DNA of 64,000 nucleotides, from assembly GCA_018894105.1 (NCBI GenBank), contig CM032127.1:8107395-8171394 (forward strand), read 5' to 3'. Below are positions 31,340-64,000 of this stretch, in pieces. A program made the position numbers and the translations under genes. The stretch is from Jacaranda mimosifolia (Eukaryota > Streptophyta > Magnoliopsida > Lamiales > Bignoniaceae). The notes beneath the pieces were generated by a model. That model searched no databases. It saw only the letters and a program-made list of their open reading frames with translations, and was not told the DNA's origin. The first letter of the stretch is position 1. Each line of letters starts with the position of its first letter.

Positions 31340-32683
31340 GCACCCCAAATATTTTGTGGAGCACTATTAAAATCAATAAGCATCTAGTTACTCTAGCACA
31401 TATATGGGAGAAAAATATACAAGATTTACTGTATGTGGGTGTCATATAATTACACCTATCTTTTCTTCAAATAAATAAAATGAATTTATAAGCAATTGGT
31501 TGCCTTTTTCTGTGTTGCATATGTTATTAGTTTTTACCTATTTCTACATTTAAGATATTTTGCAATTTATAAAATATTGATCTTAATTTCAAAATAAGTT
31601 TTTATTTTAAAAATTTTGTAAGTACATGATATCTTATATTTTGGCTATTAAATATTTTATCACATATTTTAGCAAATCATAAGCCTTAAGAACTTATGAT
31701 TCAATCAAATGTTCTCCCATATGAACACAAATATAATACAAGACATAATAATGAGGTCATTTTTGTGAAAATAGATTGACTCAGTAAAATGTTAGATAAA
31801 TATGATTAAAAAATATTACTAGGCCTAGAATTAAAATCAATAAAGCCTAGTGATATTAGCGGTTAAGCCTATGAGTCTATAATCTACCCTATAGGTTTGC
31901 TAAAGCTTTTTGACTTTGAACCATTCGCCATCTCGTGAGTAGTTGTCCCTAGTCTGGTGATCAAGTACAAGAAAGAAGGGACCCAACGACAACCAACCAC
32001 GGACAAATCCGAGGGCAGAGAGACTCAGTCCCACTTATGATTAGCAATCAAGATTCGTGATGCAACCATTGCTTTATTAGATCCAAAGGTTTTTTCTTAA
32101 CCTAGCTAACCTTTGTCACAAGAACCTTCGGACTCACCCCCAAAGGCTAAAGCAAAATACCTCACATGGGCTATTAAATCAAAACAAATCTACAAAACAC
32201 ATAGGCTTGTTGGCTTTACACATAGGAGAAATAACCAAGTAGGGTAATACTAAAATGTCAATAATTTTCAAGTTATTGTAATACTGTAAGTATTTAAGTA
32301 ATGAGCCCACCTACGGTATAAAATTTAAAAAAGAAAAGAAAAAAGAATAAAATGATAAGTTAAATTAAAAAGAAGAAAATATTAATAAGCTTAGTTAGAA
32401 AAATGAAAGCCAAAGGTTGCTGGCTATGGTACATGTCGATTGCCAATGAAATTAATAAAAATTTTGGTGTAGTATACTAAAGTTATGGTCCAAAAATATT
32501 ATATTAAATAAAAAATAATTCAAATTATAAGATATTTGATAACTAAAATAGAAATGATGACTAACTAAAATCACGCCCATCACATGTTCCTCTGGCAAAA
32601 GAAATATTCTTTCTTTCTTTTTTTTTTTCCAAATCATTACCCAATTTTAATTCTTTCTTTCACTTGTAAGTAGTGATTATTGC

Positions 32684-32690
32684 TACAAAA
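32684..32690 (+). promoter_or_regulatory. Degraded core promoter of gene copy 1
   Basis: The flanks of copies 1 and 2 are nearly identical here. Copy 2 has TGCTATAAAAAAGG and copy 1 has TGCTACAAAAAAGG, 50 bases before the ATG. The T-to-C change would weaken the TATA box. Confidence 0.35.
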
Positions 32691-33469
32691 AAGGCATTCA
32701 AAAATAAATTTTTATCTTCTCTTCAATTTCACTATGTCATTAATTCCTGGTCTCCTTCTTCTATTGAGTGGTGTCCCTATGGATGATCAGGAAACACATG
32801 AGGGGGAGGAAGAAAAAAATTCAAGCAATTCTACCGATGCGGTGGAGGCAGCAAATGAACACATGAGGAGGGAGGAAATCAAAATAATACCGTGGCAAAT
32901 GAAATACATAAGGAGGGAAAATTGCAATTTTAGTCCACTAACTATTGCCTGTTTAGATTTTACTCCATTTTAATATGGTGTTAGTAGAGTTAGTCCATTT
33001 AGTCCATTTTGCACTAAAAATTAGCACATTTAGTCCATTTATTTGCAAATTTGGTTCATTGGGCTGAAAATTTTTTAATTGGGCTAGAAAATTGTCTCTT
33101 CAATATCGATTGAGCCTAAATATTAGGGATTTTGCAACGTTTGTCAAACAGTTCGACATTAGCATCCACCTTAGTCGCCAAATCAACAAAATGGCTAAAA
33201 TCCAAAAAGGAAAAAAAAAAAGAAAAAATGTTGTGGGAAAAAATAAAAATAAAAATAAAATACAAAACAGCGCCCCAAAAAAATCCAAAAACAAAAACGC
33301 TAATGCTACTGTGAGAAAATTGAAATTGCTAGAACAATAAAAAATATGTATCTTCTTTAATTTTCACAAAAGACAGCATCTCTACTCTCTCTCTTTCTCT
33401 CACAAATATTTCTCTTTGTTTGTTGGCCATTTTTCTGCAGAAGACAGCATCTTCTTTTATTTTCGCACA

Positions 33470-33914
33470 ATGGCAACTTTATCTCCAACTTCTTTGAGGC
33501 CCTTTGAATGCTCATGTGGTGATAGATGCCTGGTGAAGACCGTTTGGATTGAGCAAAATCCTAGTAGAAGATTTATGTCTTGCCCAAAATATAATGCAAG
33601 TATAAAAAAATTTTAATGGGTATTTACATTTTTGGGTGAAATATTGATTTTTACCTAAGATTTGTGTTCATTTTCATTTTTAGAGGAGTAGGTGTGGTTT
33701 CTTTAAATGGGTTGACCCACCCATTTGTGCAAGGTCAAAATGTATAATTCCAGGTCTAGTTTGGAAAATAAATGAAATCAAGATGGAGAATGCAAGATTG
33801 GAGGCAGAGAATGCTAGATTAAGGAACCACTAACTGAATTGGAGAAAGGGTTTGAAGATTATAGTTGTCATTGTTGCTATGTTTTGGTTGGTATTATTTT
33901 TCTGGGTTATGTAG
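33470..33914 (+). pseudogene. GRF-type zinc finger protein with coiled coil and C-terminal membrane segment (MULE cargo)
   Basis: Exon 1 (33,470-33,595) encodes ECSCGDRCLVKTVWIEQNPSRRFMSCPKYN. Exon 2 (33,684-33,833) continues RCGFFKWVDPPICARS, then a short coiled coil (KMENARLEAENARLRNH) and TAA. Together they form a GRF zinc finger (C-x-C...C...C with F-x-W-x-D), a nucleic-acid-binding module. The intron fits a GC-AG pair (AAT|GCAAGT...TTTTTAG|AGG) in phase 0; a GT donor one base later would shift the frame. The frame stays open past the TAA (33,831-33,833) and encodes KGLKIIVVIVAMFWLVLFFW, a clear transmembrane helix, to TAG at 33,912-33,914. The original protein therefore probably had a C-terminal anchor. 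Similar small GRF proteins are common in plant genomes and often travel with MULEs. It is divergent in orientation to the transposase. Confidence 0.7.
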
Positions 33915-35872
33915 GAATGCTAGATTGAAGTTGTTATGTTGCTTCACTGGAATAGGGTGGTTTCTTCCTTTTGTTCTTCTGTAAGATGGTTTATCTTGTG
34001 TACTTAGAGTACTTAGGTTACTCCATTCGGCTATATTTGTAATATGTTTGTAACAAAAAGAAACATAAATGCAATATATGTAGGTTTATGTTGGATTCAA
34101 TCTGTCTTTTATTTGTCTTTGGTTTAAGTGTTTTTATTTTGTTATATGGTTTTTTATGAGGCATGTGGGATACGAATTGGTCAAAAGTGAGTGCATATGT
34201 GGTAATAGGAAAAATTTATATTTTCTCTGCTTAAAAAACATATGTTAATATGTCAAAACAAGAGAATTACATTCCACTGTTACATTCAAGCAGGAGAACT
34301 AAAGCAAATTTGATAAAATTCCATATTTATATTCAATATGTCAATAGCATCTCAAAAGGCAATTTTGTTATAGAATTGTAGCACATAAACAAGAGTTTGT
34401 TTCCATGTCCTAAAAAAAATCACAAAACCCAACTTCAAAGCAAACTAAATCTGGCTTGAACACATTAAAAGTATTCAAATGTTTATTGCCTAAAAACTCA
34501 GTGACAAAATACTAATGCTAACTGTTTCAATTACATAACACAACTAGAAAAGCAATGCAGTTCCACTTCTTGCCAACTTTCTTCTTATTCTTCTTCCCAT
34601 GCAGTTGATCCATTGCTTCTATAATGTTGCTGAGGTGAACAAATTTCTTGTTGCCTTGTACAGTGGTCACGTTGCTTCCACTTTGTGACATTTGATGCGG
34701 TTGGTACATGGATGGTCCAAGTACCTTCTTTGATGGTTGAACTTCATTTGTGTTGTTTTCCTATATGTATACCCCAAAAGTATGTTTATGTAATATTTGA
34801 TAAAAGTGCAAAAGTATTAGTGAAGGTAAGATGTATACCTTTGCTTTACCCTTTGCTTTTGGAGATCTTCTAAGTCCAATACTCTCTTAACCACAAGTTG
34901 GAACCTACATAAATAATAGAAAAATTAGCCATCTACATTACAGGACTCAAATACGCATAACTTGACTACCTTTGATGGACCTCCTTGAGATTTCCTAATA
35001 GCACCTGCAGTGCTTGTCCTTATGTTTCTCATGACCTATATTTCATACATTATCTCAATAATGCATTCGAAAAACACACATCAAACTGAGTTTATCTTAT
35101 CCTACACGCCTTATCCTACAACAACTCACTTGAATCACCAATGTTTTGCCTATGACTCCCTATACCAACCTTTCTCTTCCCCTAAATGAACGTAGTGAAT
35201 ATTATTAATCTAGGAAAACTTTGTAGTGCAAAAACAACCCAAAGTACACACCTTGTCCTGCTATGTATTCATTTATTCCTGCTTGTCCTTTGTTGAAGCA
35301 GCCTCTTCTATATAGGTTGATGATGCAGCCTGTCTTTGAACTTAGAAACATAAACGACTAAAATTAATAAGGTGCAAGTAGTAAAACTAACTAAACAAGC
35401 CAATCTTTAATGAAGAGAAAAGCATATATTTATGTTACTTGATGGGGTTTGAGATGCTTGAGTACTAAATTGTTGAACCAAATCCTCTTGATCAATACTG
35501 ATATCTGTGATATGATCATCCAAAGGATTTAACTTCAAAGGACATTTCCTTTGGTTGGTTGTGTCCTTATTGCTTACATAGTCTGCACTTTAAAGCTTTA
35601 ACCCTTTTCTTCAGTTTTGTAGCTTCTTTTCTTATTCTTCTCTACAGTCTCTTTATTCCCTTTCCTTCTTGTTTTAGTTGGCCTTCCTTTCTTCTTCAAG
35701 AAGTTTGGAGGTAATGGATGTATGTAAATGGTATCTCCAATATAGCTTAACCATTTACACCCATAATTGCATTTTCATATACCCTTTGATAGCATGCAAC
35801 ACTATACCAAGGAGAAACATATGACTCGGGATCTTCCCTTTTGCAAATTGCACAGCATGCATGAAGATAAGA

Positions 35873-36003
35873 AATCCCTATTAAATCCCATCTCCTACAG
35901 CTACAACTCCATACCTCCAGATCTACACAATATTGCCCCTATATATTGTGTAGATCTAGAGGTATGGAATTGTAGCTATGGGAGATGGGATTTAATAGGG
36001 ATT
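35873..36003. repeat. 131-bp near-perfect palindrome inside the MULE transposase gene
   Basis: The arms 35,873-35,933 and 35,943-36,003 (61 bases each) are complementary with only a few mismatches, around a 9-base loop. They begin and end AATCCCTATTAAATCCCATC / GATGGGATTTAATAGGGATT. It lies between the catalytic core and the zinc knuckle and corresponds to no known protein domain. It could be an inverted local duplication or a small hairpin element. Confidence 0.85.
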
Positions 36004-37571
36004 CCTTACCTTCGTGATAGATGTGCAATCTCTATTTTTTTGAAATCGTATCACGATATACTCTCTTATCCACTCAAGCATTGTTAAAATTGATTTCTCT
36101 AGCTTATATGGTTGAACTATCGAATGACTCACAAAAATTATTTAATACCATGTCACATTTTGGATTAGGAGTGAAATGGGATTTACTCCATTATTAGGGT
36201 AGTTTGTCACTAAACCAAGAAGTTATCATAGGATTAAGGTCTGACATAACTTGTATTTAGATTTTAAACTAACCTACAGTAGTGCTATTGGCAGCTTTCC
36301 CCAACACATCTTAAACTTTAATCCCTTAAAGCCAACACTCATGAAATTTTTCCATAGATGCCTAACACAAAATCTATGTTCTGCTCCAGGAAAAACCTCA
36401 TCAAATGTTTGAATTAACCCTTTTTGCTTATCTTAAATGATTGTGAATTCATGTGATTGATTGATTTGAAGATCTTGTTTGAGCGAGGTTAAAAACCATC
36501 CCCATGTATCACCAACTTCCTTATTAACCACACCATAGCCCACAGGGTATGGCTTATTATTAGGGTTAATGCAAGCAACAGTTAGAAACACTTCTTTGTG
36601 GGAGCTAGTCAAATGACATTCATCTACTCCTAGAATGGGCCTACAACCAGCTAAGAGCCCATTTTTTAATGCCTTAAAACAGCAATAGAAGTGTGTGAAA
36701 GTGTTGTCTCCATTACTATCCTCCATTCCCAATATGATAGTGGAACCAGGGTTTGTTGTTCTTAACTCTGCACTGAAATCCCAAAGCTTGGCAAACTATA
36801 CATTAGAATCACCCTCTATCATTTCAAATTCTCTCTTCTTGGCTCTATAGGCTTGATGCTAAGAGACACTAACCTTAACATCTATTTCAAGTTCTTGCCT
36901 AAATCCCTCATTTCTTCTTATTGGATGTATTTTCAACTTATTCACAAACCTCTCAGCAAGGTATGTGGATTTGACATTAGAGACATCATAAGTGAGTTGA
37001 CATGTATGTGTAGGAATATAGGTGTTAAATTGGAACGTGAACTCATTTTCAACCATATATGCATGGAGCTTCCACCCATACTCCTCAGACTCACACCCTG
37101 CATACACTCTTTCTCTATCATTTCTCTTAATCTTGATATTCCTTATTGTTTGAATAGCATCAGCATGGACAATTTTCCTAAAGTCGATTTTGTTCTTGAA
37201 TTTTATGCCTAATTCAAATGCTGGGGTAAGTTTTCTACTATAATTGAAAGAATGTGCATGAGAGCTATGTGAATCTACATTTGAGTCAACCTCACTATCT
37301 AAAGAAACATCACTATCACATCCAATCCCTTCTTCACTATACTCACTTTCACTGTCACCTTCCTCCAATCCTATCTCCTCTATAATTTGGTCATTTAGTT
37401 CATCAATCCCTATATACTCTACCTCAGGGTCAACATAATTCTCAAAATGCAAATCATCCTCTGCCCCATCAGTATCTACCTCAAAATCATATATAGGATC
37501 ATTGTCACTACCACAACTTAAATTGGCTTTATCATCACTTAACACAACAGGCAAGCTCACCCTCTCAATGG

Positions 37572-37884
37572 TTAACCCCAACAACCCTCTTTGGTTTTGG
37601 TTTTGGTTTTAGGTTTGTGTTTGAGACTAGCTTTGGAACTTTGTATGAGATCATGTTTTAGTTTAGGTTTATTTTTGAGACTGTGTTTGACAATGTGTAG
37701 AAGTTTAGGCTTGTCTTTGAGGTTGGGATTGGACTTGTGTTTGAGATTGACTTTAGGACTACATTTGTGATTGTGATTAGGCTTGGTATTGGGCTTCAAG
37801 TTGGGGTTAGGCTGCAAGTTTGAGCTAGTATTAAGATGTGGATTTAACTTGAGGATGGGATTAGGATGGGCCTTCATTTACATC
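37572..37884 (-). repeat. Degenerate short tandem repeats coding a Lys/Pro/Asn-rich stretch
   Basis: On the plus strand, GTTTGAGATTGGGGTTAGGC-like units of about 6-18 bases recur. On the minus strand they give peptides such as NPHLNTSSNLQPNPNLKPN. It sits between the N-terminal region and the DNA-binding domain of the transposase. Length variation would stay in frame when units of three codons are gained or lost. Confidence 0.6.
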
Positions 37885-40800
37885 GCCAATTGTCTCTATA
37901 TATATCTCAACCTCCCTATGCTTAGCATTAGCTAGTCCAACTTGTCTTAGTTCACTTTCATTAGCAACCGGCTTAAACGTGTCATCTACTTTCTAATAGA
38001 ACTTCCTAGGATATATAATGTGTATAATGTCACAGAGGTAGTTCACAATCCTAAAATTTAATTCATCTAACAAACATTGGTCAAATTTTGCTACTTTCCC
38101 ATTTTTATATACACAAGGAAAATCATGGTCATATTCATCATCATAAAAAATTGCAATTGTTATTTTTCCAGAGCCTTTCTTTACACAAAACTGATATACA
38201 AGGAAATAAAAAATTATAGCAGGTTTTGAGCACTCATACAGAGTTAAGAAACCAAGTACCGCACTATAAACACCTATTGACCCACCCACACACATTTGTA
38301 GATCCAACCAACTATTATTAAATAGTATAGCCAAAGGTACCCAACATATGTGACCTATAACTTCACTTTCACATATGCAACTATATGAATATTCTCACAA
38401 AGAGATAGTACATAATATAGATATAAGAGTCAATATTAAAAAAGAAAACCCTCCAATTAACCAACATTTATGACCCATACCTCATTTCAACATATGTGAA
38501 CTCAGAGAATATTTTTCAAAACACAGAACACCAGATGATCCATAACACCACATGCTAGTCAAAAGAGTGCACAAGCCCACTAACGAAGACTTTATTAACA
38601 TTAGAAAAAAATTGGATAGGGACCACTAAAAACAAAAAATAATATCAAAGAAGCATGCTTCGAAATCAATATTTAATAGGAAAAATCTAACATTGTAGTC
38701 CTACAAATAAAGACCTAACACCCTCTATACTTAAACCCTTACTTACCATAAAGAGAGGCTGGAAAATGCAAGTCTGTTGAAGCAGGCTCAAACATCTTCA
38801 ATCACCCAACCTAGATCCATAATCTTCTCTAGCGCACCAACTTCTGCGTCGCTTGAAAAATTAGGGTTTTGGGGTTCAACTAAATAACAAATATTTTGGG
38901 TTTTCTAGCATCCAACATAGGCGGGGATATAGTTGCTCAACTTTTCGATTAATGGAGATAGGTATCTTCTACAGATTACTTAAAAAGATTAGGAATACGG
39001 TTTGCCTTTGCGAATTTTTTGGTCTTACTGGTTTCAAACTTGGAGCACCTTCTTCATCGATTTTTCTCCTTCCCTCTTCTTCTTCTTCCAATTTTTGAAT
39101 GGAGTAAAATCAACACAAGTAATAGTTGGTGGACTAAAATTGCAACTTTCCCTACATGAAGAAGAAGGAAATTCAAACAATTCTACGGCGGTAGCAAATG
39201 AAACACATGAAGGGAGAGGAAATCAAAATAATGTTGCGGCACCGTGCGGGGGTAGGAATAGCCATTGTTGAATGAGATAATGACTGACCTAAGAAAAGTA
39301 ATTGAGAAAAATAAGGAGCAGGTCTTTAAGATCAAGGGAAATGTTTTCCAACTCGTCAACTACCATTTTGTTTATCAAGGAGTGATACTAACTGTTGTCA
39401 TTACTAGCTCACTTAAATGCCAATTTTTTTTGCTTCATTTTTCTCTTTCTCTAGTTGGAGCAATTTTAAACTTTGGCACATTATTAATGGTTGCAGAAAG
39501 GTAAAAAAATCTTTAAATAGCCTGGACAATAGTATCCTAATCTTCTATCAATACATGTACCCAACTGTATCCAACATGTTGCACCAAAGGTACCAAAAGA
39601 AGAAATCTGTGAGAACTGTGATTCTAATATTGACAATGTTTCTCTTTCTCATTTTCTCCATCCTTATTCTATATGCTACTTGGACTATTCCATGCCACAA
39701 CTGCTAGCTACAAAAGATTAAATTCTTTCTAGAGTCAAATCATCTTGATAGGTTTTTGTTCGATCCAAAAGTCTGTTCTATTGTACCTTTTCTATGTTTA
39801 CTTTTGATTTTCTGGATTGCTAGTGTATTTTCATTTTTGTTTAAGAAGGTGTATAAACAAAGAAATAAATTGGATTCGGAGTAAAAATCTACCTTTGTGG
39901 TATGAATTTTGTTATACCTTTACTTTTCCTTTTTTTCTCTAAGCAATACATTTTTCTAATTGACATGCAAGTTCATTGAAACTTTATGACATTATGCAGC
40001 GTTCGCAAAATAGATTTGTGGATTTTCTTTCTTGGTTAACTAAAGAATTATGGAATTTCTTTGATATGAATACAATGAAATATTGCATTGATTAAGTATG
40101 AGTCTGGTGGTTGAATTCAAATATAAAAACTAACTATAAGATAACAATTGTGAATGTACTTCTGAAATTGTATAGTCAGGGTATTTACATAATATTATTA
40201 AAATAAAATTTTATGAATTGATGTATCTGTAAATTGAGATATTGCCATGTGTTCTAATTGGTCACTTGTAGTTTTAATGAGGTTAATAACACCCAACCCA
40301 TATTTTTAACATTATTTATTCTAATTTTACCATATCACTTTGGTTGGTGATTATGAGTAGTGGCAAAAACGGTAGGATATCATTAGTCAATTCCAATTAA
40401 AATTTTGATATTCTATTTCATATTCTAAATAAACATCAAGCATATAATATTTTATAAATCTATATTTGGTCAATTACACACATTTACACACATGCAGTTC
40501 TTAAAGTGAAATATATATTAAACATAATTTGAAATAAAGGTTGGAAAATGACCATTAATTATATATAATTGCTTTTGATGAAGTTGTAGATATGGATTGA
40601 TATTGCAGTTCAAAGTAAACAACGAAGTATTCAACTCTTAGATTATAATAAGAGATTTGTGTCGAAATTATCAAACTTTCCAATTTATTTTGTGCTCTAT
40701 GCATTTGAGAGAATTTATATGATACTATTACAAGCAGTATGTAAGCAAGTATTTTTGTTTTTCCTCAAATTTTTAACTCTTTTATTATTTCACATTTGGC

Positions 40801-40939
40801 TATTTCATTCTGTCAAAGTATGTGGCTTTCTTCTACATAATTATTGGTGTTGGTTATCGCATGACGTTTATCATTCCACCAAATTGAATTCTTGATTTAG
40901 CCTAGACTTCTGGCAATGACTGTTTCAATTCTATATGCC

Positions 40940-41970: not shown

Positions 41971-43439
41971 AAATGAAAAAAAAAAAAAAAAAAAGATATA
42001 TTGGTGAAAAAGATACAAGATTTATTGTACATGGGTGCCATACAATTACACCTATCTTTTCTTCAAATAAATAAAATGAATTTATAAGCAATTGCTTGCC
42101 TTTTTCTATGGTACGTATCTAACAAGTTTTCACCTATTTCTACATTTAAGATATTTTGTAATTTATAATCTCAATTTCCAAATAAGTTTTTATTTGAAAA
42201 ATTTTATAAGCACATGATATCTTATATTTTGAATTTTAAATATTTTATCACATATTTTAGGAATATCGTAAGCTTTAAGAACGTATGATTCAACCAAACG
42301 TTCTCCCATATGGACACAAATATAATACAAGACATAATAATGAGGCCATTATCGTAAATATAGACTCAGCAAAATGTTAGATAAATATGATTAAAAAATA
42401 TTACTAGACCTAGAATTAATATCAGTAGAGCCTAGTGATATTGATGGTTGAGCCTATGGGTCTATAATGCACCCCAAGGGCCAAAGCAAATACCTCACGT
42501 GGGCTATTAAATCAAAACAAATCTGCAAAACACATAGGCCTGTTAGCTTCACACATAAGAGAAATAATCAAGTAGGGTAATACTAAAATGTCAATAGTTT
42601 TCAAGTTATTATAATACTGTAAGGCCTCATTTGATAAGCGTTATAGGATTACACGGGATATGTTTGACATGGGTTGTGGTATCCAATATTAATTATGAAT
42701 CCTATGCATTTCGTTGTTTGGTTGCATATAAATGTTAGTGAGATATCACATGATATATCCAACTTGCATTTGATTACTTGGTTATATTGAATGTGATTAC
42801 ATTTGTAATTTCATAAATATCCCTACCAAATTGGTAAAATTACATTTATATGTATATATATATGAATATATATTTTGTTTCTCTTCTTTTCCTCTTTTCC
42901 AGCAATCAATTTCTCCCCAAAATGAAACCAAACTACTCAATTTTCTCCCACAATCAATTTCTCCCCAAATAAAGCCTCATCTCCTACACCTATTCTACCA
43001 GAACTCAAATCCTCCAGAATAACAACACTGAGAGAATATCACAACTGAAGAAGTTAATAGAAAGATGAGCCAAGGTTTGAAGATGTGCATAAACACATGA
43101 GAAAAGAATGAGGTTTGTAGAATATGAAGAATGATCGACCATTGCTTGCTACAAAGGACGAGGTATTAAATTCAATTGTTAAAATTTATTTTAAAGATTC
43201 GAAGTGAAAGAGGACCAAGGTTTTGCAGATGTCCATTTCATTTTATTTTTTTTTCAGAAGTGAAAATTTGAAGTTGTTTATGTATGATATTTCTCAAAGT
43301 AAAAATCAAAATTGCAAATAATTTGTTAGTTATAATTTGATGGTGATTCTAGCATGTGCTTATTTTTTTCTAGAATAAGGGTTTATGCTCATCTACAACC
43401 TGATGGAAATCAAAGAGTGGCCTACTAAATATTGGTGTG

Positions 43440-43881
43440 GTAGAGGGTAAATGGCCACCTTTTGTGCTGGTTCTCACACTAGGAATCCTAATAGGTACTT
43501 TTATCGATGTCCATAAAGTTTGAAACATGAAAAATCTTTTTTGTGCTATGATCTGTATCATAAGAAAGATCCAGAGGAACTTAAGCCATATTTTCTTCAA
43601 AATCAGCAACATAGCATAAGGTATTGTCCTCCATCTCATGATGCTTCTTCCTAGTACACTCCATCAAGTTCTGCATCTGCTCATACCATGCACAATACTA
43701 TATCTCAATCACAATACTCTCATCTGGCCATGTCAAATCCCACAGTAGACAAAATGGAGTTGCTTCAAAGAGATTCTATGAGGCACCAACAAGGCTGTCT
43801 TATTTTGTTGCTAGGATTAATGATGTTCATTACTTGTTTTCTTATGTTGCTTTTGTCTCTTTTTATTAGTAGGTTTGTTTA
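43440..43881 (+). pseudogene. GRF-like zinc finger remnant with C-terminal membrane segment
   Basis: One frame, with internal TAA and TAG stops, reads FCAGSHTRNPNRYFYRCP, KHEKSFLCYD, KKDPEELKPYF and then a Ser/Thr-rich linker. It ends in MELLQRDSMRHQQGCLILLLGLMMFITCFLMLLLSLFISRFV, whose last 27 residues form a clear membrane helix. The NP-R-F-Y-RCP signature and the downstream cysteine resemble the GRF finger, and the overall order (finger, linker, membrane anchor) mirrors the MULE gene at 33,470. The assignment is by motif only. Confidence 0.5.
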
Positions 43882-43957
43882 AGTTGAATCTAGGTGCATC
43901 AGTAACTACTAAAGAACTTTTAGTCATGGTTATTGCTTTTGTTGTATGTAGTACTAA

Positions 43958-44305
43958 GGGCCCATTTGGATTTATTTTCTAGAGGCATTTTCATTTTCTA
44001 GTGAAAATAAATAGTGAAAAGTTAGTTATAAATTTTAATTTGAAAATAGAATATTGCTTAGAGGTTTTATTTAACATGTAATGATTATGTAGAGTTGCAA
44101 ATGAGTTGTATTTAAAAAATATAATATTTTTGTATTAAAAGTCGTGCAAATATGAGTAGGAAAAAATAAAAAGTGAAAATGAAGGGAGAGTATAATAGTG
44201 TGTTTTGGAGAATATTTGTGAAAATAGAGGAGAAGTTGATAGTTTTCTGTTTTTATTTTCAGCAGAGAATGAAAATGGTGTTTGAAAACAAAACCCAATG
44301 GGCAC
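43958..44305. mobile_element. Tourist-like MITE nested in the Harbinger element
   Basis: The ends GGGCCCATTTGGATTTATTTTC and (complement) GTGCCCATTGGGTTTTGTTTTC are flanked by TAA at 43,955-43,957 and 44,306-44,308. It is 348 bp long with no coding content. Related to the copy starting at 16,166. Confidence 0.75.
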
Positions 44306-44669
44306 TAAGTATGTTGATGGTATTCTCAAGTTATGGAAATCTTAAATGCCTGTTTGAATTATTTCCTTCACTTAGTTTATGTTATGAGGTAGGAGGTGGT
44401 AGTTGGAATAAATTATTGCATCAAATTTTCTCTTCTTTAAATTAATTGTTGAGTTGATGTTACAAAAAAGTAGTGTACTTTTTCATTTAAAGAGGTAGTT
44501 GCTAGTCTTATTTGATAAATTTCCACTAAAAAGGCCATATACTTTAATACAAGTTAAAAGGGGTTGCTGGTAAAGTACAAAAAAAAATAGATACGCATTA
44601 AATTTATCATTTATCTATAAAAACACATTATGTTCACTTCTTTACTACCAACTATTGAATCACTAGAAA

Positions 44670-45645: not shown

Positions 45646-45649
45646 AGCA

Positions 45650-51203: not shown

Positions 51204-51536
51204 GGCACCGTTTGGTTTCATTTCCACACCCCATTTTCACATTTTTACTATTTCATAAATAAAAACCATCACTTTTTACACATTTTCACCCAACATCATT
51301 TTCATTTTTATTTTCAAAACTCATTCTCCAATAACCTATATATCTACTATCTCTATTCCATTATTTCTCACTCTCTTTCTCCACCTACAACATATTAAAA
51401 CCAACATAATCATTACATTTCCAAACATTTCATCCAAACACATTTTCATTTTCACATCATATCACATAACTAATTTTCATCAAAATGAAAATGCTAGAAA
51501 GTAAAAATGAAAATGAAAATAAAACCAAACAGTCCC
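51204..51536. mobile_element. Tourist-like MITE, 333 bp
   Basis: The ends GGCACCGTTTGGTTTCATTT and (complement) GGGACTGTTTGGTTTTATTT are flanked by TTA at 51,201-51,203 and 51,537-51,539. Segment 1 lacks it (about 32,462, TTTTGGTGTAGTATAC), giving an empty site. A degenerate relative lies upstream of the flotillin pseudogene. Confidence 0.85.
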
Positions 51537-51756: not shown

Positions 51757-51797
51757 GGCATTCAGAAATAAATTTTTATCTTCTCTTCAATTTTACT

Positions 51798-52686: not shown

Positions 52687-53272
52687 CGTTAAGAATTGGG
52701 TTGGTTTTTGGACTCTTGACCTAATAAGACATCCATATTTGAATTAAATCGTATTTATATATATAAGTAATAGTAGTTCTTGTTGGATTAGAACTCTTTC
52801 TTGTGAAGAAATGTGGATAGATAATACTCATCCATATCTAGGAGAATAACTCTCCATGTGTGGGATAGACATTATCTAGATCTTCTAGTTGGAATGGACT
52901 CTTGGAAAACTCACTTGTAAACAAGCACTCTTCGTAGGATTTTAATACACATAACTTGAGCATTCATTCATAAAAGATTCTCTTAAATTCATAGTTAATT
53001 TTCTAAGTCTTTCTTGGGGTATCACCAAAGAGTCCCAAAGGCTTGAAGTGTGTAAGCTTGTAGACGCTCTGGTAGCAACCCTTCAAGGTGAGAAGAAGAA
53101 ATCAAGAGAAGGCCATTCGAATTCAATGAACATGAAGTTTATATGCATTCAAGGCTTGTAGACAAGTGTTGATCCAAGGTGGTATTCATAAGTTTTTTGC
53201 CAATGAAAAGGTAATATTAGACCACCATATTTGATATCATGAATTATATGCTTAAATCGTGATTTTTCAACA
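52687..53272 (+). repeat. 5' LTR of the copia element
   Basis: Direct repeat of 59,218-59,802. The sequence after it (AGTATTGGAGC, about 53,275-53,285) resembles a decayed initiator-tRNA-Met primer site. Confidence 0.88.
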
Positions 53273-54249
53273 ATAGTATTGGAGCTAAAAGGGTTCGATC
53301 TCGCATTTTTAGTCGATTGAATGCATTAAATTATTTGATGCTTGAACATTGAAATTCGCATAAAAAATATTCATGAGCTTCTGCATTACAGAATGCTTGA
53401 TTGGCTAATACTTCAAATTTGTTGTGAACAATAATTTTTGAGATATTTGATTAATTAGAGATCACTTAGTTTCAAAGGATTTTTATAAATAAATAAATAG
53501 AGCAAAATAAATTTGATTGCACTACTTAATCCATGGAAATCAATTTGAGGCTAAGTAACATTGTTCTTTGTGGGCTTATGCCAAATGACGTGTTGGATTT
53601 AATTTTTTATTTCAGTTAATGCAAATTACACGTGTTCTTCCAATGAGAATTACATTAATACAGGTTACATATATTTTTGTTTTAGGTAATGTAGATTGCA
53701 TTAATTCATATTTCTTTGGATTTTTTCGAACTTAAAAATGCTAGCAATTTGTTGCTATTTAATTGAATTCAAATGCATGAAAAGTCTTTTATGATTTTTG
53801 TAAAGGAGTGAATATAAGCAATTTGTTACTATTAATGGTTGGGATCATTCAAGATTGATACCATTAATTGTTAAAATTTGAAAGCTATATAATTTGAATT
53901 ATTATCTTTGATGTGAAAAATTATATGTGATTTTTCATGAAAGATCATGAGATTTCTTGAGCATGCAATTTAATTAATGGAATTCTATTTTTATTAGAAT
54001 TAAATTATCTATGTGATTACGTAAGTTTCTTTGAAATTGTAAAAGCTCAAATTATTTGTTTACAGACATAATGTTATTTTATTTCTGGATTGGTAATTTT
54101 ATTAAACTCTTTACTTCAGTGGGAGATGATTACTAGCTTTAGTGGTGAAACTTTCAATTTCACTGAATTAAAGAGAATAATAAAACTTACTTGGATCCGA
54201 AATAAAATATTAGACTAGTACCTAACATAAATAAGCATGCCATACAATT

Positions 54250-57200
54250 ATGAAGACCCAAACAGCTTTTTCTAACCTTCATTGTAATGGCAAACTTGAT
54301 GGCCAAAATTATACAATGTGGTATAGAAAAATTCAATATTTATTGCACAAAGAAAAAATCCTTGATCATCTCACCACTTTCATGCCTGAACTTGTTAAGC
54401 CAGAATGGATAAACTACCTAATATCATCGCGATTTGATGCATACAATAAGTGGGCGGATCAAGATATGAATGCACAGTGTACTATGCTGAGCTGCCTGCA
54501 CAATAATTCGATTCGTGAATTTGAGAAATATCCTATGGCTAAAGAGTTGTGGGAAGTATTGAAGATCACGTATAATAGTAGCTCGGCTACTACACTGCAG
54601 GCACTCTCTTTCAAGTTCAATCAGTATGTTCTTGATCTGAAACACTCAATGATCCAACATCTTGATGTGATGAAAGATATGATTTGAGAACTTCAAAGTG
54701 TTAGATATAAGCTCACAGACAAATAATAGGTTCTGGCTGTCCTTATGTCGCTACCTGAGCAAACTTCAGGAATATTAAGCTTTTGCTAATGTATAACAAG
54801 CAAATAAAGACGTTCAACAGTGTCGCCAATGATTTTAAGTTTGAGGCTGACCGAAGAGAGTCGGAACGTGCACAAGCAGCTACTCTTATCACATATGCTG
54901 GTCAATGTAAACCAAATAAAGGCAAGCATGGGAACAAGTAGGCTAGTGCTAGACAAAAGAATAATCAAAGTCAAAACTTGACCCCACAATGCGACAAGGC
55001 TATGAAGCATCATCGAGGAATGAGGGGTGGAAAGAAAGACCCAAGTAAGGTTAACTGCTTTAACTACAAGAAGATAGGTCACTTTGCTCCTAACTGTACT
55101 GAGCCGAAAAAAGTAAGTTCTATACAAAGCTCTCTCAATTCTTTTGTTTGCTCACATGTATTAGTTATAATTCTCTCCCTGGTTAGATTGCAGACACAGG
55201 AACAACAAAACATGTGACTAGAGATCGAACAAAATACGTAGATTACCAGTGCCAGCATGCAGCCACTACATTGCTCTAGGGAGTAGCGCATGAGAGGAAG
55301 TCCTTAGAATTGGTACATGCCAGCTTAAGCTTAGCATTAGGCATGAGCTACTTGTTAGTGATGTGCAATATGCACCTGGCATTCGATGTAATTTAGTTTC
55401 AGTTAATGCATTTTTGAGATATGATTTTTCTTTTCTATTTGAGAACACTAGTTTGTCTATTTTTCCTGATAAAGAACTTTATAGAGTAGGTTTTATGCTT
55501 AATGGACCTTTCGTTTATTTCTTCTACTATAGATATTATTTCTGATTCTATTAAATGGCATGCAAGATTGGGACACAGGGGGAAAGAGAAGATGATTAGA
55601 TTACCTAAAGCAGGCATATTGGGGCCCCTTGCTGAAGTCAATCTTCCTGTGTGTGAACCATGTTTGGTAGGAAAAGCCTGCTGGAAGCCTTTTGGAAAGG
55701 CTAAGAGAGCTACTTATTCCCTAGAGTTAGTCCACTCAGACATATGCAAACCCATGAATGTAAGGGCACAACATGGTGCATACTACTTCCTCACATTCAT
55801 TAATGATTATTCACGCTATAGATCAGTATATCTCTTATCTCATCGATCAAAAGTGCTTGATTGTTTTAAGTGATTTTTGGCAAAGGTTGAGAATCCAAGG
55901 GATAAAAAAACTTAAGGTTTTACCTACAAACAAAGGGCGAGGATATTTATCTAATCAGTCTAGACAAATATGTAAGGAAAAGGATATAATAAGACAATTA
56001 ATGATACCACACACTCCACAATAAAATGGAGATGTAGAAATGAGGAATCAAACACTTCTGGATATGGCCAGATCAATTATGGTGCAAGCAAATCTTCCAA
56101 TATCATTTTAGGGAGATGCAATTTTGACTGTCGCTTATATTTTAAACCATGTGCTGTCTAAGTCAATTCCTTCAACACCATATAAATTTTGGCACGGGAG
56201 AAAACCTAATTTAGAGATGTTGCGACCCTGGGGTCAGTAGGGCTTGTTCATAGTACTTCTCACAAGCATGGGAAGCTTGGTCCTAGAGCAAGTAAACATT
56301 TCTTTATAAGATATTGTGATTATGTACGGTGAACACCCTAATGGAGGAATGATTGAGATTGAGTCCTGTGATGTGGATTTCCTCGAAGAGAATTTCCCAA
56401 CTATAGGAAAAGTAAAAGATAATCTAACTATATGAGTTTTTAGACCATCAAGGCGGCTCATCTATCTCTAATAATGGTAAGGGCTTCCAACCTAATTCAG
56501 TAATTGATATGGATGATGAGAGCAACCCTAAATCCAATGGGAGTGTTTCATTAGAAGAAGACTCAAAATCTTCAGTTACAAAGAAGTAAACATAAAACTA
56601 TACCCCATCGACGATATGAAATTGAAGGGGAATCTTTCACAAGTGCTTCTATGGATATTGATGAGCCAGCTACTTATAATGAAGCTTTAACTTCTCCTAA
56701 CACAAAAGAATGGATAACTACTATGGAAGAAGAGATAAGCTTAATGGTTAAGAACCATGTTTGGAAGCTAATTGATCTTTCAACTGGACGTAAGAACATC
56801 GCGAACATATGGGTTCTAAAGGTGAAGCAAAAGGCAGATGGATTGATCGACAAGTGTAAAGCTCAACTTGTGGCGAAGTGTTATACTTAAAAAAAAAAGG
56901 CGATAAACTATAAAGAAATATCCTCATTAGTAGTGAGGTTTACCTCTATTTGCTTAATCTAGCCATAGTCGCCCATTTCGATCTGGAATTAATTTCAAAT
57001 TGATGTTGAGAAGGCATTTCTCAATGGAGAACTAAATGAAGAGATCTATATGGATCAACCCATAGGTTTTCAAGAAATAGGATAGGAGCACAAAATTTAT
57101 GACTTAAAATGTTCTATCTATAGGCTGAAACAATCGTCCAGACAATAGTACCATCGATTTCATCAAGCTATCATATCGACATACTTCACGATGATCCAGG

Positions 57201-58137
57201 AAGATCACTATGTGTATGTCAAAAGAAATGGGAAGAGTTTTTTATGCTCTCACTATATGTGGATGATATTTTATTAGTTGTAAATGACATGGAATTGATT
57301 GTCGCTACTCAGAAGTGGTTGTCCTCTGCATTTGAAATGAAGAAAGGACATAGGGGAAGCTGAATACATATTTAGTGTTAAGATACACTAAGATCGTTCT
57401 AGAAGACAATTGAATTTATCTTAAGAGACTTACATCAAGAGAATTATAGAATGATTTCCTATGCATAATGCTAACCTAGTAGACATACCCATGGATAAAA
57501 GTTGGTTCTTAGCAAAGAAATGTGCCCAAAGATAGAAGAAGAAAGGAAACGCATGGCTAAGGTTCTACATACAAGTACTATAGGAAGTTTGATGTATGCT
57601 ATGACGTGTACTCGGCCAAACATGTGCTTTGTAGTTGGGATGGTGAGTAGATATCAAAGTAATCCTGGACCTAACTATTCGATAGTGGTCAAAAAGATAC
57701 TTAGATGAACGCAAATCCACATCGGGATATGCATTATTACTAGGAGACGCCGCTACCACTTGGTGTAGTAAGAAATAGCCTTGCATTTCTTTGTCCACAA
57801 TGAAAGCAAAATACGTTGCTTGTATATCAGCAATGCAAAAGGCTATTTGGTAAAGGAGATTTATGCAAAGTTTGTGCATTTCAGTGCATGTTGATGATGC
57901 ACTTGTTATTTATTGTGATAACACAGCTGCTTTGGCATATGCTAAGGACCTTAAGTACCATGAGAGGACCAAGCACATAGATACCAGATATCACTTCATT
58001 CGAGATAGTATCACGCAAAGATAAGTAGTTCTCAAGCATATTCCTACTAACGATATGGTCATTGATCCATTTACCAAGCCTTTGTGTGGAGATGTGTTCC
58101 AAAGGCATGTTAGTAGTATAGGACTTCGTAGGATTTG
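54250..58137 (+). pseudogene. Copia gag-pol polyprotein, many stops and frameshifts
   Basis: Gag (54,250-54,687) has KLDGQNYTMWYRKIQYLLHK and WEVLKITY. The nucleocapsid knuckle at about 55,050-55,095 reads CFNYKKIGHFAPNC; its second Cys is Tyr, so metal binding is impaired. Protease: about 55,187-55,250, ADTGTTKHVTRD (the active-site Asp is present). Integrase: WHARLGHRGKEKM, PVCEPCLVGKA and HSDICKP, with INDYSRYRSVYLL (55,530-55,873). Reverse transcriptase: NTKEWITTMEEEI through WVLKVKQKADG, then YVDD at 57,256-57,267. RNase H: AKYVACISAMQKAIW, CDNTAALAYAKDLKYHERTKHIDTRYHFIRD and VVLKHIPTND to 58,137. Stops within gag and between all domains show it cannot be translated as one protein. Confidence 0.85.
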
Positions 58138-59208
58138 ATTATTGACTTATATGAGTGTTTTTTATTGATTAATGAAATTATGGTGTCTTTTTACATTTCT
58201 ATGTTAATGTATTGGGTCTATGATATGTACGAATGTCACCAGGCTTTGATTGACTCACTCAATCGTCCTGGCGCTTTGATAGCGAAGAAGATGAGACTTA
58301 TAGATCATGTATATATTGTTAAAATGTATATGAATGACTGCCTTCATATTTTGAAAAAATAAGGAAGGTTAAAATATAACTTAAAGTTGCCTTAGCTTGG
58401 AGGCTAAGATGAAATCATATTTGATTGATTATGACAGTATGTCCAACTTCATAAAAACTTATTTGTAGCCGAATGTGTGAAATACTGGAAGGCATTTTAG
58501 GAATGATTGTCTCGTGTTGTGCAAATTAGGCTCTTGAATAGCAACTGGACTAAGGTTTGTATGATGTTAAAAGTGTGACATGCCTAAAATTGAGTGGGAG
58601 CTCCATCATAGCATGTATTCATATTACATGGGCTATGCGATAGCCTCTAAGGAGAGTGATTGAATGGGTCCCTGTGTCGTCACTGTGTAAACCTTTATTG
58701 CTACACCATTTGGGACTCTGGACCATGTCATGAAGTGTAAGTTTGATGACACTACTTTAGCATGCCTCTAATGGCTATGATTAATTCGGTCTGTCAAAGC
58801 ATGACTAAGAAAGTTGTCAACACAAAGCAAAGAAAGCTGTCAACACCAAGCAAATTGGCATGAGGTGCTGAGGAAAAACTAAGGTTGGTAACACACTCTT
58901 GTTCCATGGCTCATAGGCCAGCCGACTAAGTCAAAAGTGTTTGACATAGTTATGAGCATAGATATATAGTGGAAATAGTCAAGCATGCTCTACTTGATAC
59001 TGAGGGATCAGAGATGCTTGATCTACTACGACCACATAGTTTGGGGTACTTAGAGAGTTTTGAGTTGTAGGGTTATATTACTTTGGTGGTGGTTTAATAT
59101 AACTTTCCTCACTTGATTTCTTCTCACTTGGTCGCACGTCTTATTCCCTGTATGAAAGAAAGTACGTGAAAGTTTATGAATTCGATGACATTGACTCAAA
59201 TATGTATG

Positions 59209-59217
59209 AGTGGGAGA
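59209..59217 (+). other. Polypurine tract of the copia element
   Basis: GAGTGGGAGA lies immediately before the 3' LTR start TGTTAAG, the expected place for plus-strand priming. Confidence 0.75.
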
Positions 59218-59802
59218 TGTTAAGAATTTGGTCGAATTTTGAACTCTTGACCCAATAAGACATCCATATTTGAATTAAATCTTATCTACATCTATAAGGA
59301 ATAGTAGTTTTGTTGGATTAAAACTCTTCCTTGTGAAGGGATGTAGATAGATAATTCTCATTCATATCTAGAAAGATATCTCTCTCTTATGTGGGATAGA
59401 CATTGCCTAATTCTCCTAGTTGGATTGGACTCTTGAAAGGTCACCTATAAATAGGCCCTCTTACTAAAAGTCTAATACACACAACTTGAGCATTCACTCA
59501 TAAAGAATTCTCTCAAATTCATAGTTAATTTTCTAAGTCTTTCTTGGGGTATTATCAAATAGTCCTAAGGGCTTAAGGTGTGTAAGCTTGTGGAAGCTCT
59601 GGTAGCAACCCTTCGAGGTGAGAAGAAGAAACTGAAAGAAGGTCTTTCGAGTTTAATGAGTGTGGAGTTTATACGCATTCAAGGCTTGTAAACAAGCTCC
59701 GATCTAGGATGGTATTCATAAGTCTTCCAATAATCAAAAGGTAATACTGGACCATCCTATTTGATATCATAAATTATATGCTTAAATCATAATTTTCGAA
59801 CA
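59218..59802 (+). repeat. 3' LTR of the copia element
   Basis: Direct repeat of 52,687-53,272 with scattered differences (for example CACCTATAAATAGG here and CACTTGTAAACAAG in the 5' copy). That site is the likely TATA box of the LTR, intact only in the 3' copy. Confidence 0.88.
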
Positions 59803-62574
59803 TAAAGAAATAAACTGGATTCAACATAAAAATCTATCTTTGCATTATTACGTTTGGACTTTACATGCTCGACTAGAGGAAGCATTTTCTCTTCGATACT
59901 CTGTTGGTTTTGTCGATGTGGTTTGTTTGTTATGGTGGAGTTTGATCTGCATTAGAGATCTGCAGAAGGCTATTGTAGGAAATACTGCTGCCTGAGACTA
60001 TCAGTTTGGTTATATCTTTACTTTTCCTTTTTTCTCTGAGCAATACTTTTTCTAATTGACATGCAAGTTCATAGAAATTTTATGACATTATGAAGCAATT
60101 GCTTTTTGAATAAATGATAGATTTGTGAATTTTCTTTCTTGGTTAACTGAAGAATTGTGGAATTTCTATGATATGAATCCAGTGGTTGAATTCAAATACA
60201 AAAAAGAATAATAGGATAACAATAGTGAATATATTTTTGAAACTGTATAGTCAGAATATTTATAGAATGTTATTAAAATAAAATTTTACGAATCGTTCTA
60301 TGTGTAAAATTGAGATATTGCCACGTGTTTTAATTGGTCACCTATAATTTTAACGACATTAATTATCACCCGACCCAAATTTTTAACATTGTTTATGCTA
60401 ATTTTACCATATCAGTTTGGTCGGTGATTATGAGAAGTGGCAAGAACTATAGGATATCATTAGTCAGTTCTAATAAAAAAATTTATATTCTATTTCGTAT
60501 CATAATTAAACATCAAGTGTGTGTATATATATATATATATTTATTTAATAAATCTATGTTTGGTGAATTACACACATTTACGTACATTCATTTCTTAAGT
60601 GAAATATAAATTAAGCATCATTTGAAATAGAAGTTGGAAAATGAACATTAATTATATATAATTGCTTTTGATGAAGTTGTAGATATGGATTGATATTGCA
60701 GTTGAAAGTAAACAACAAAGTATTCAGCTTTTATATTATAATGAGAAACTTGTGTCGAAATAATTCAACTTTTCAATTCATTTTGTGTTCTACGTATTTG
60801 GGAGAACTTATATGATACTATTACCCATAGTATGAAAGGAAGTATTTTTTTTCTTTTTTTTTTCTCATCAAATTGTTAAATTTTTTATTATTTCACATTT
60901 GACTATTTCATTCTGTCAAAGTATATGGCTTTCTTCTGCGTGATTATTGGTGTTGGTTATCGCATGAAGTTTATCATTCCACCAGATTGAATTCTTGATC
61001 AAATCCGTAATCTTTTTTAGTAATTTTTTTTTTTTTCTTTTTTAGCCCCTAACAAAGGTGCACTGCCATAAAAGTAATGCATTTTACATAAGGATAAATT
61101 TGATTATAATGTGTCTAGCTCCATTGATATCCAGTGGTAGAAGCAATAATTCTCTACAATACTGAAATAACATATTCAAATATTTTATACTTGGTAAGAT
61201 ATTATTGAATTTGTGAAAAATTGAAAGAAGCTATTTAATTGACAACACATGCAGTACTGATATTGTCAAAGTCTTGTCTTAGACTGCTCATTTTTTGTCT
61301 TTCTTAAATTAATCATTTTGGCACGTCATTCTTATAGTAGGTTATTTTGGGAGCATGGCTGAGGAGAGGGGAGTCATGTACAAAAAGATGAGAAAAATTT
61401 ACAAAGGGGTATATGTAACTTCAAACCACTAAATAAAAATTATTTTTCACAATGCTGACTTATGGACGTATGAAGGATCCAAACTTCTTTACTAGAGCTC
61501 TTGCTTGTGAGGGCGCTTACCTTTGACGCGCGAAAAATAAAAAATAAAAAAGACTTTCTCTGTAGAATGAACTAGTTAGACATGTTCAAGCAATTCTATC
61601 CTTAAAAAGGTAGTTAGAGGACAAGATAGCAACCCATATCACTATCGCCATTCATAGTGAGTGATCTAAGATCTAAGTTTATCTATTAATCTAACTTGGA
61701 CTTCTAGCAGTGACTCTGTTTCAATTCTATTTGCCAGATCTCTTTATCTACTTAGTTCATTGTAAAAGCCTTTATGACTGTGTATGACTTAACTGATGAG
61801 TTATCAGTTTTGGAATTAGTGAGTTATGAGCCTACTTTCTCAATCTACAATCTACCGTGGAAGGATTTTTTTTCAAGCTAATGAGCTACTAGTAAGTCAA
61901 TTAGAGAACTTGAATTGAAATGAAAAGTTAGATGTCTACTATAGATATGAATTTAGGATTATCACTCCAAGATTTCAATATTTTCTGTAGCACTTTTAAA
62001 ATCAATAAGCTTCTGGTACTTAAATGGGAGAAAAAGATACAAGATTGATTGTACATGCGTGCCACATAATCAAATGAGTTTATAAGCAATTGCTTGCTTC
62101 TTTGTATGTTGCACACTAATGTATCTTACAAGTTTTTACCTATTTCTATAATTAAGATATTTTTACAACTTATAAAATATTGATCTCAATTTTAAAATAA
62201 GTTTTTATTTTACAAATTTTATAATTCATAACATCTTATTTTTGAGTTTTATAAGTGTCAACCTTACGATTCAACTAAGCATTCTCCCCATATGAAAACA
62301 ATGATGATACAATTGTTGTAAAATAAGCATTAATAAATTGTTGGATAAATATGACCAAGAAGTATGATGCCAATTGCCAATGAGATTAATTAAAAAGGAG
62401 TAGTATACTAAAGTTCTGGTATTAAGAAATAATTTCAAATCATCTAATCTTGCTAGGGTTTTTATTTCTGTCAGACAGTTCAGTTAGAGTTTTAATTATT
62501 TTGTTAGTTAGTTGCCCGTAGTTGCTTTTCATTTAAAGAGTTTCTATCAAGTTTTTCTCTTTTCTAGCCACTTG

Positions 62575-62582
62575 TATATAAA
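62575..62582 (+). promoter_or_regulatory. Possible TATA box of gene copy 3
   Basis: TATATAAA lies about 70-100 bases upstream of the recognisable coding sequence of copy 3. It does not align with the box of copy 2, so copy 3 may use another core promoter. Confidence 0.3.
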
Positions 62583-62639
62583 CATTGCACAGCTCTCGAG
62601 AAATAGAATCAAAGTCTTTTCTTCTTCCTTAGTTTTCTC

Positions 62640-63162
62640 TCGATCTTCCGCCTCAATAACCAGCACGGCAAATGAAACAAACCAGCTCGGAGGAAGCCGA
62701 AACAATGCGGCGGTGCAGACGGCAGAGGCAGAAACATTCAATGATTTAAGCACAGCAATTCGAAGAAAAAAGGAGATTTTTGGGATTGAATTCTGGCTAG
62801 CAAATTACCACTTACTTTTTCAAGGATTGATTCTCTATGCTATGCACACCGATTCACTTTAATGCGAAATTTTCTGGATTCTTTTTTCTCTGCCGGTCAG
62901 TGGCATGATTTTCAATTTTGGTGCATTACTCATTGTGGCGCACATGTATAAGAGGTCCTCGGACATCCTGGAGGATAAAAAGTTGCGTCTCTATCAGTAT
63001 CTGTACCCGAATACGTACCGGATGATGCAGAAGGAGCACAAGAAAGAGAAAGGACTTGGAACAGCAGTTTTCGTGTCTATAATGCTTGTCTTTCCAATTA
63101 TCTCCATCTTCATTCTGTTTGTTGCTTGGAAAATTCCATGCTATCGCAGCCAGCTAGCTTAA
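62640..63162 (+). pseudogene. 3-TM membrane-protein family, copy 3 (one in-frame stop, no start codon seen)
   Basis: One frame carries the whole conserved part: TANETNQLGGSRNN, LSTAIRRKKEIFGIEFWLANYHLLFQGLILYAMHTDSL (TM1), TAA at 62,860-62,862, then CEIFWILFSLPVSGMIFNFGALLIVAHMYKRSS (TM2). It continues YQYLYPNTYRMMQKEHKKEKG and GTAVFVSIMLVFPIISIFILFVAWKIPC (TM3), ending RSQLA. The TAA replaces the Lys of the SLKC motif (one-base change from AAA). No ATG lies in this frame upstream of TM1; the first downstream ATG (62,672) is out of frame. There are no indels elsewhere, so this copy decayed later or is read through, spliced to an upstream exon, or under different constraint. The family is unrecognised. 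Confidence 0.7.
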
Positions 63163-64000
63163 ATTCCTTCTGGGTGCAACTCATCTCAGGCAGGTTTCTG
63201 TTTCGATCTAAAAGTCTGTTATATGTTGCACCTTTTCCACGTTTACTTTTATTTTTCTCGATTATCAGTGTTGTTTCTGTTTTTGTTAAAGAAATAAATT
63301 GGATCAGTGTAAAATCTACCTCTACAGTATTATGTTTGGACTTTACATGCTCGATTGGTGGGAGCATTTTCTGTTTAATACTTTGGTGGTTTTGTTATTC
63401 TGTGTCTGCATACTCCGCTCGAGAGTTCATAATGGATTGATGATGAAAATACTTTATTGAAATAGAATAAAGAATGTAGCAGTTCGGTACTTCAATACAG
63501 AAGGAAGCTGTTTGTAATCGAACAGGCCGATCTTCACTATTATGATTGGGCCAAGTTGAGAATGCTAAATGGGTCAAAAGCCCAAGCACTTGCCCTTGCT
63601 GCGATTCTTTCTAAACAGAGAAAATTGTAATATTCGTGATTGAACCTAAAAAATATTGCTTGAATTCTCCTTTAAAAATATTATAATAATAAGATTAAAA
63701 TAGTACTTTTTATAAAATTTACTAATCCATTATATACTTACAAAAATCGCCCAACAATGCCCACAAATACTTATAACAATTGTACCTTCAACTCCACACA
63801 ATTTGATCCTTTATTTGAATATCAGAAGTATCATATTATTTAAATGTTCAAAAAGTATTTATACACACGAAATCGCATATAACAACTGTGAGTAAATACT
63901 AAGTGAACACATCTAAAATAGAAAATATCCAAAAAGATAAAGGTAAAATCAGCACAACAATTATCAATGGTATTCCACCTAGCTAACACCACTGGTCTCG
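63163..64000. other. 3' flank of copy 3 and intergenic end of the window
   Basis: To about 63,400 it is the duplicated 3' flank (AAAGTCTGTTATATGTTGCACCTTTT, shared with copies 1 and 2). Beyond that no coding frame with recognisable homology and no clear repeat is seen. Confidence 0.5.

Follow-up and report, generated by a model that had tools for sequence, protein, structure and literature searches.

Broken copies of a eudicot small-protein family within a tandem cluster on a Jacaranda mimosifolia contig

Tandem gene clusters in plants evolve by birth and death: many local duplicates lie together, intact copies are mixed with broken ones, and the region is rich in transposons. Here we describe a locus with all of these features in Jacaranda mimosifolia (Bignoniaceae), met in a 64,000-nucleotide window of contig CM032127.1 (C11:8,107,395-8,171,394; C11 is a 36-Mb contig of a 707-Mb genome) in which three segments carry copies of one small gene. 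It differs from the known clusters in that its product has no assigned function. We name the family by the signature of its first predicted transmembrane segment (TM1), LANYYFVFQG; it is without a functional name in most records. The best sequence-profile match in the PDB was to TMCO1, the calcium load-activated calcium channel (6w6l chain 6), a single, weak match (E 0.0019) to part of the profile. The coiled coil of TMCO1 lies between TM1 and TM2; the model and alignment of the family described here place a coiled coil before TM1 and a long loop between TM2 and TM3. A second likeness, to 8xMP (octameric membrane protein, PF24838; found in a Bacteroides control genome), consists of a recurrent sub-threshold match over most of the profile and is weighed below. 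With a probability of about 0.85, we read the segments in the window as broken copies, from two subfamilies (A and B), of a family of small eudicot proteins encoded by single open frames and clustered on C11.

Comparison of the window with itself bears out the proposal of a first-pass annotation that three segments in the same direction hold the same small gene, in units at 31.35-40.94, 42.00-61.00 and 61.98-63.40 kb. The DNA and the core that they have in common are alike far beyond chance: the cores of copies 1 and 2 match at BLASTN E 2.5e-144, and the second half of the copy 3 core matches copies 1 and 2 at tblastn E 1.5e-14 and 5e-15. The positions first given (31.3, 42.0 and 61.97 kb) hold as unit starts but not as gene sites, since 31.3 and 42.0 kb fall in 5′ flanks and the cores lie at 39.15-39.71, 51.80-52.51 and 62.67-63.16 kb (Table 1). 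The cores of copies 1 and 2 are far from their 5′ flanks because inserted elements, of approximately 6.2 kb in unit 1 and of 8.4, 0.33 and 7.1 kb in unit 2, split the units. Within the 5′ flank of copy 1, positions 31400-31883 have 87% DNA identity to 41996-42468 and positions 32138-32290 have 92% to 42472-42623, and other comparisons of its parts with 61977-62251 gave 73-83%. All three copies belong to the same family, as first suggested, but copies 1 and 2 and copy 3 fall into different subfamilies, and the hydrophobic start and NEIHEEEGN-type acidic Asn-rich repeats once ascribed to each occur in copies 1 and 2 only. From the translations, this hydrophobic start may sit upstream of the usual start of the family; 'VPMGDQERHE' in the intact A copy L014 aligns by eye with 'GPMANVGGQEIHE' in the intact copy L017 of a third subfamily, C (loci L009 to L026 lie outside the window). 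The window copies carry the motifs NFG, YQY and W(T/K)IPC, and copies 1 and 2 also SLKC, where copy 3 reads SL-stop-C; the TM1 motif is substituted relative to that of the family, reading LVNYHFVYQG, LANYHFIYLG and LANYHLLFQG in copies 1, 2 and 3.

None of the four copies in the window (copies 1-3 and a relic) is intact. Transposons broke up copies 1 and 2; copy 1, cut by an element, has one frame change before the insertion and two after it, and copy 2 shifts frame twice and contains an in-frame TAA. In copy 3, the start codon and the core stand in different frames, and there is again an in-frame TAA. The Kimura two-parameter (K2P) distance between copies 1 and 2 is 0.164 in the core and 0.125, 0.078 and 0.144 in the flanks, so core and flanks have diverged to a like extent since the two split, as expected of dead genes. 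The suggestion that the gene was once under selection stands: ratios of nonsynonymous to synonymous change (dN/dS; Nei-Gojobori, in-frame pieces, bootstrap medians) are 0.50 (0.28-0.98) between copies 1 and 2, 0.30 (0.14-0.50) between copies 1 and 3 and 0.37 (0.20-0.61) between copies 2 and 3, all with intervals below 1. These intervals therefore point to an older divergence of copy 3 from copies 1 and 2 under constraint.

The tandem array exists, but it extends over 1.25 Mb and comprises about 30 places, not three. Genome searches gave 24 matches with the copy 3 core as the query and 47 with L017. The interval C11:7.22-8.47 Mb holds 30 of the 35 places into which these matches merge at gaps up to 2.5 kb; stricter gap limits gave 36 places with 31 in the cluster (1 kb) or 40 with 35 (150 bp). 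These counts are lower bounds, and many matches are fragments. We read 21 copies, namely the 18 loci fetched outside the window and window copies 1-3, leaving the relic out. Subfamily A comprises copies 1 and 2, L014, L015, L024 and L025; subfamily B comprises copy 3, L009, L010, L011, L012 (which additionally carries a partial C-like piece), L013 and L016; and subfamily C comprises L017, L018, L019, L020, L021, L022, L023 and L026. Full-length intact frames were found in 8 of the 21, the other 13 being broken or truncated. Subfamily C contributes six of its eight members (L017, L018, L019, L020, L022 and L023; 157-187 residues), A one of six (L014, 309 residues) and B one of seven (L009, 157 residues). 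One of these, L018, is located 5.1-5.6 kb upstream of the window. The family thus looks real, though without a functional name, and the window is mostly a graveyard with intact copies nearby. A quick tree joins A (L014) and B (L009) as sisters (Shimodaira-Hasegawa-like approximate likelihood ratio test 96) and flags B_L009 as a long branch. Two intact-looking members are dispersed, L027 on C3 (69% to a Sesamum protein) and L028 at C11:12.45 Mb, which is divergent (best match approximately 29%). The cluster would have grown by repeated local duplication and loss. Blocks at C11:7320908-7362479 and C11:8005904-8034175, with A, B and C copies, are 96-98% identical; either the segment was duplicated recently or the assembly contains it twice.

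Divergence (K) was compared among L009, L010, L013-L016, L025 and window copies 1-3. Between A and B, mean K is 0.52 in the core (25 pairs) versus 0.21 in the 5′ flank (10 pairs) and 0.29 in the 3′ flank (25 pairs), with flank pieces picked where BLAST aligned them and so biased towards conservation. Within A, it is 0.145 in the core and 0.198 in the 3′ flank, and within B 0.158 in the core versus 0.174 and 0.152 in the flanks. Selection bias of the flank pieces, or exchange of flanks between subfamilies, are possible sources of the contrast between A and B.

Relatives in other plants argue that this unrecognised family is a real one. A first profile, built from eight intact members, found 16 proteins, and a second, of 19 rows, matched 169 of the 7,995 proteins scored at E<=0.01; 120 of these matches were listed. 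Sources among these listed matches include Sesamum, Buddleja, Erythranthe, Paulownia, Handroanthus, Forsythia, Abeliophyllum, Salvia, Solanum, Cinchona, Actinidia, Vitis, Prunus, Rubus, Trifolium, Quillaja, Fagus, Castanea, Acer, Pistacia and Ricinus, which we take to span about 10 eudicot orders. None from Brassicaceae or monocots was seen among the listed 120 of the 169 matches, many of which are unnamed. Ten named proteins that we place in Lamiales share 46-68% identity with the intact C gene L020 across the portion that aligns. Adjoining locus tags in Handroanthus (CDL12_13798, 13800, 13801 and 13802) and neighbouring ones in Prunus speciosa (CerSpe_050460, 050510, 050580 and 050590) suggest tandem clusters there as well. 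Relatives from Buddleja (P0002), Sesamum (P0004), Erythranthe (P0005), Prunus (P0027), Trifolium (P0016) and Fagus (P0069) have the helix layout and TM1 motif in common with the family here, and likewise usually have Cys both in the first loop and close to the C-terminus. Compared with them, subfamily A has the additional acidic Asn-rich repeats and hydrophobic start, and subfamily B has a long tree branch, with all window copies broken. The records are mostly named 'hypothetical', 'uncharacterized' or 'transmembrane'; a few odd labels (ATP-dependent RNA helicase ddx56, RaiA, partial photosystem II D2) are probably misannotations or chimeric predictions. The label 'ATP-dependent RNA helicase ddx56' stands on P0056, P0095, P0114, P0116 and P0121 (Quillaja, Fagus and Actinidia records) and is probably a spreading misannotation. 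No open-licence paper on the family was found by its motif letters or locus tags.

The protein architecture was examined in an 89-row alignment of 5 proteins from this genome and 84 of 122 database proteins, with fragments and near copies left out. The TM1 motif of the family, F-x-L-A-N-x-x-F-V-F-Q-G, was found, and A69, N70, F75, Q76, G77 and N110 are invariant in all 89 rows. An AlphaFold2 model of intact L017, a relative of the window copies, built from this alignment (mean predicted local distance difference test [pLDDT] 82.4, predicted template modeling score [pTM] 0.65) has three long helices, 28-86, 97-139 and 141-186, with a predicted N-terminal coiled-coil extension; an earlier model from 19 rows agrees with it at lower confidence (pLDDT 71.8). 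Of the three membrane segments first proposed, TM2 and TM3 are clear, their best 19-residue hydropathy reaching at least 1.6 in 87/89 and 83/85 rows; TM1 is the weaker one. Cys93 and Cys185 are both present in 67/89 rows, both absent in 18/89 and split in 4/89, two of these four being gapped at 185. We speculate that a cytosolic helical stalk, made up of the acidic coiled coil at the N-terminus together with the TM2-TM3 hairpin, would lie below the three membrane helices, that the C-terminus and the short loop joining TM1 to TM2 would face the luminal or outer side, where the two cysteines might form a disulfide, and that the protein would self-assemble and serve as a scaffold or pore. As a whole, this model of a self-associating membrane protein is tentative, and we put it well short of even odds.

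Constraint on the family was gauged from recently duplicated stretches, which were aligned for two intact pairs and, as three stretches, for two broken pairs. In the intact C pairs, the coding sequence had 0/564 changed sites versus 35/5311 in the flank (p 0.029) and 5/474 versus 88/4001 (p 0.061), or 5/1038 versus 123/9312 when pooled (one-sided Fisher p 0.0087); in broken A/B duplicates, the counts were 27/1159 versus 124/6474 (p 0.85). Pairwise dN/dS is 0.25-0.33 for A versus C and 0.46 for A versus B. In this genome, C is the subfamily in which constraint is still visible, and recent constraint is weak.

Several points weigh against the reading set out above. Each intact duplicate pair is marginal by itself, the pooling was done afterwards, and the same pattern could arise through gene conversion. 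Among C pairs, dN/dS is 0.40-0.84, its interval reaching at least 1 in 9 of the 14 pairs with an estimate (for example, 0.84 [0.53-1.53] for L017/L019). TM1 is weakly hydrophobic (>=1.6 in 14/89 rows and >=1.2 in 71/89; 1.06 in L017), the cysteine pairing comes down to approximately three independent changes (sign test p 0.25), and a net positive charge is seen on the TM2-TM3 loop in 59/89 rows, with the TM1-TM2 loop positive in 38/89, which makes the topology rule weak. Sequence searches gave no convincing solved relative, and Foldseek gave no match at E<=0.001; oligomerisation and membrane side are what we infer. Together with the 13 broken or truncated copies and the similarity of core and flank divergence within A and within B, the wide dN/dS intervals among C pairs would fit the alternative that every copy is non-functional and the intact-looking frames are recent, surviving by chance or gene conversion. 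We consider this improbable: there are eight full-length frames, coding sequence has changed less than flanks in intact pairs and not in broken pairs, the six invariant residues persist across all 89 relatives, and intact-looking members occur on C3 and at C11:12.45 Mb. It is far less credible still that the units are transposable-element cargo, or a decayed part of an element, and the gene a transposon open reading frame spread by transposition. Transposons abound in the window, and four elements interrupt units 1 and 2, but each of the four lies inside a unit with its own ends and target copies, and 30 of 35 places fall in one 1.25-Mb region rather than being scattered. Moreover, no transposon Pfam domain was precomputed for the 120 listed relatives, the only domains being PF24838 (three) and PF00124 (one). 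Intact homologues exist and, judged by the domains of the listed relatives and the element ends in the window, are not confined to transposons, which interrupt the copies in units 1 and 2.

A further alternative makes the family a plant branch of 8xMP that works as an octameric membrane assembly. PF24838.2 is the most recurrent Pfam model, matching 21/89 members at E<=0.01 (best 3.4e-6) and often spanning profile positions of approximately 20-134 of 136, and the newer PF24838.3, which may include some relatives, is precomputed on P0004, P0008 and P0069. However, the best score shown (27.4 bits, P0008) is below the 30-bit cut-off of PF24838.2, and no Pfam score shown for family members reaches its cut-off; a whole-genome search with PF24838.2 gave no match here and, among 14 control genomes, matched only Bacteroides ihuae. 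Hydrophobic helical proteins also match one another weakly, DUF1673, DUF2721 and CD20 turning up as well, and the likeness is one of sequence profile. We regard the 8xMP affiliation as unlikely. A bolder version, which we count as a long shot, would see eudicot-wide, expanding and decaying, disulfide-locked three-helix membrane oligomers, distant kin of the bacterial octameric family, whose A and B cores are kept apart (K ~0.52) and flanks exchanged (K ~0.21-0.29), the pattern expected where diversifying pressure acts on a locus for recognition or defence.

The elements within the units have recognizable ends. The Mutator-like element in copy 1 has 63-bp inverted ends (32914-32976/39091-39153, 86% alike), target copies TACATAAGG/TACATGAAG by eye and a PF03108 MuDR domain at 36862-37584 on the minus strand; the PIF/Harbinger-like element carries a PF12776 Myb/SANT-like domain at 48091-48618, also on the minus strand. 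The long terminal repeats (LTRs) of the Copia element are 84% identical (K2P 0.192), which looks older than the split of copies 1 and 2 (0.08-0.16) although copy 1 is without the element; perhaps a silenced transposon changes faster. Degenerate Cys-rich stretches at 33470-33720 and 43400-43650, within inserted elements, presumably resemble GRF-type zinc fingers. Elsewhere in the window are a Band 7/SPFH (flotillin-like) gene fragment near the relic copy (9713-10138, minus strand, PF01145 E 4e-12), an LTR retrotransposon with a gag domain (24068-30356, minus strand, PF03732; LTRs 93% identical, K2P 0.074) and a further repeat family (11480-11693, 15718-16165, 21379-22358 and 41005-42002), partly directly upstream of copy 2.

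Table 1. Gene copies, flanks and inserted elements, in window positions (TIR, terminal inverted repeat; MITE, miniature inverted-repeat transposable element)
Feature	Positions	Strand	Evidence
Copy 1 (subfamily A), 5′ flank of repeat unit	31348..32733	+	DNA identity to copies 2 and 3
Copy 1 reading-frame start, hydrophobic stretch, acidic repeats; cut by insertion	32734..32913	+	Translation; 68-79% DNA matches to intact L014
Copy 1 gene remainder: acidic repeat, charged helix, TM1-TM3; two frame changes	39154..39707	+	
Copy 1 3′ flank	39708..40939	+	39901-40896 81% identical to 59999-60999 (1036 columns)
Copy 2 (subfamily A), 5′ flank	41996..42622	+	Self-comparison
Copy 2 gene: hydrophobic start, NE(I/T)HEEEGN-type repeats, TM1-TM3; two frame changes, in-frame TAA	51798..52509	+	
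Copy 2 3′ flank, resumed past Copia element	59803..60999	+	Self-comparison
Copy 3 (subfamily B), 5′ flank	61977..62671	+	Parts 76-80% identical to flanks of L009 and other B copies; related to copy 1
Copy 3 B-type gene; start codon out of the core's frame; TAA at 62860-62862	62672..63162	+	Core 88% DNA identity to intact L009; translations
Copy 3 3′ flank	63163..63395	+	80-85% identical to B-locus 3′ flanks; related to 39635-39847 and 59803-59913
Fourth copy, heavily decayed (TM2-TM3 region)	12502..12797	+	63-64% DNA identity to copies 1 and 2; genome-search protein match E 3.6e-5
Mutator-like TIR element in copy 1	32914..39153	.	Inverted repeat, ends, PF03108 MuDR domain
PIF/Harbinger-like element (8.4 kb) in copy 2 5′ flank	42623..51023	.	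GGCCTCATTTG ends, TAA target copies by eye
333-bp MITE-like insert in copy 2 5′ flank	51204..51536	.	TTA target copies by eye; partial match to 10321-10612
Copia LTR element in copy 2 3′ flank	52688..59802	+	LTRs 52688-53272 and 59219-59802

Read as broken and intact copies of one eudicot family, the locus gives a widespread family of plant membrane proteins a motif by which to recognise it, along with a predicted architecture and a candidate disulfide. Its lineage-specific expansion and frequent loss suggest a dosage-tolerant, environment-facing role, as in many plant tandem clusters, and its recent duplicate pairs, some intact and some broken, offer a natural experiment on constraint in a plant gene cluster.

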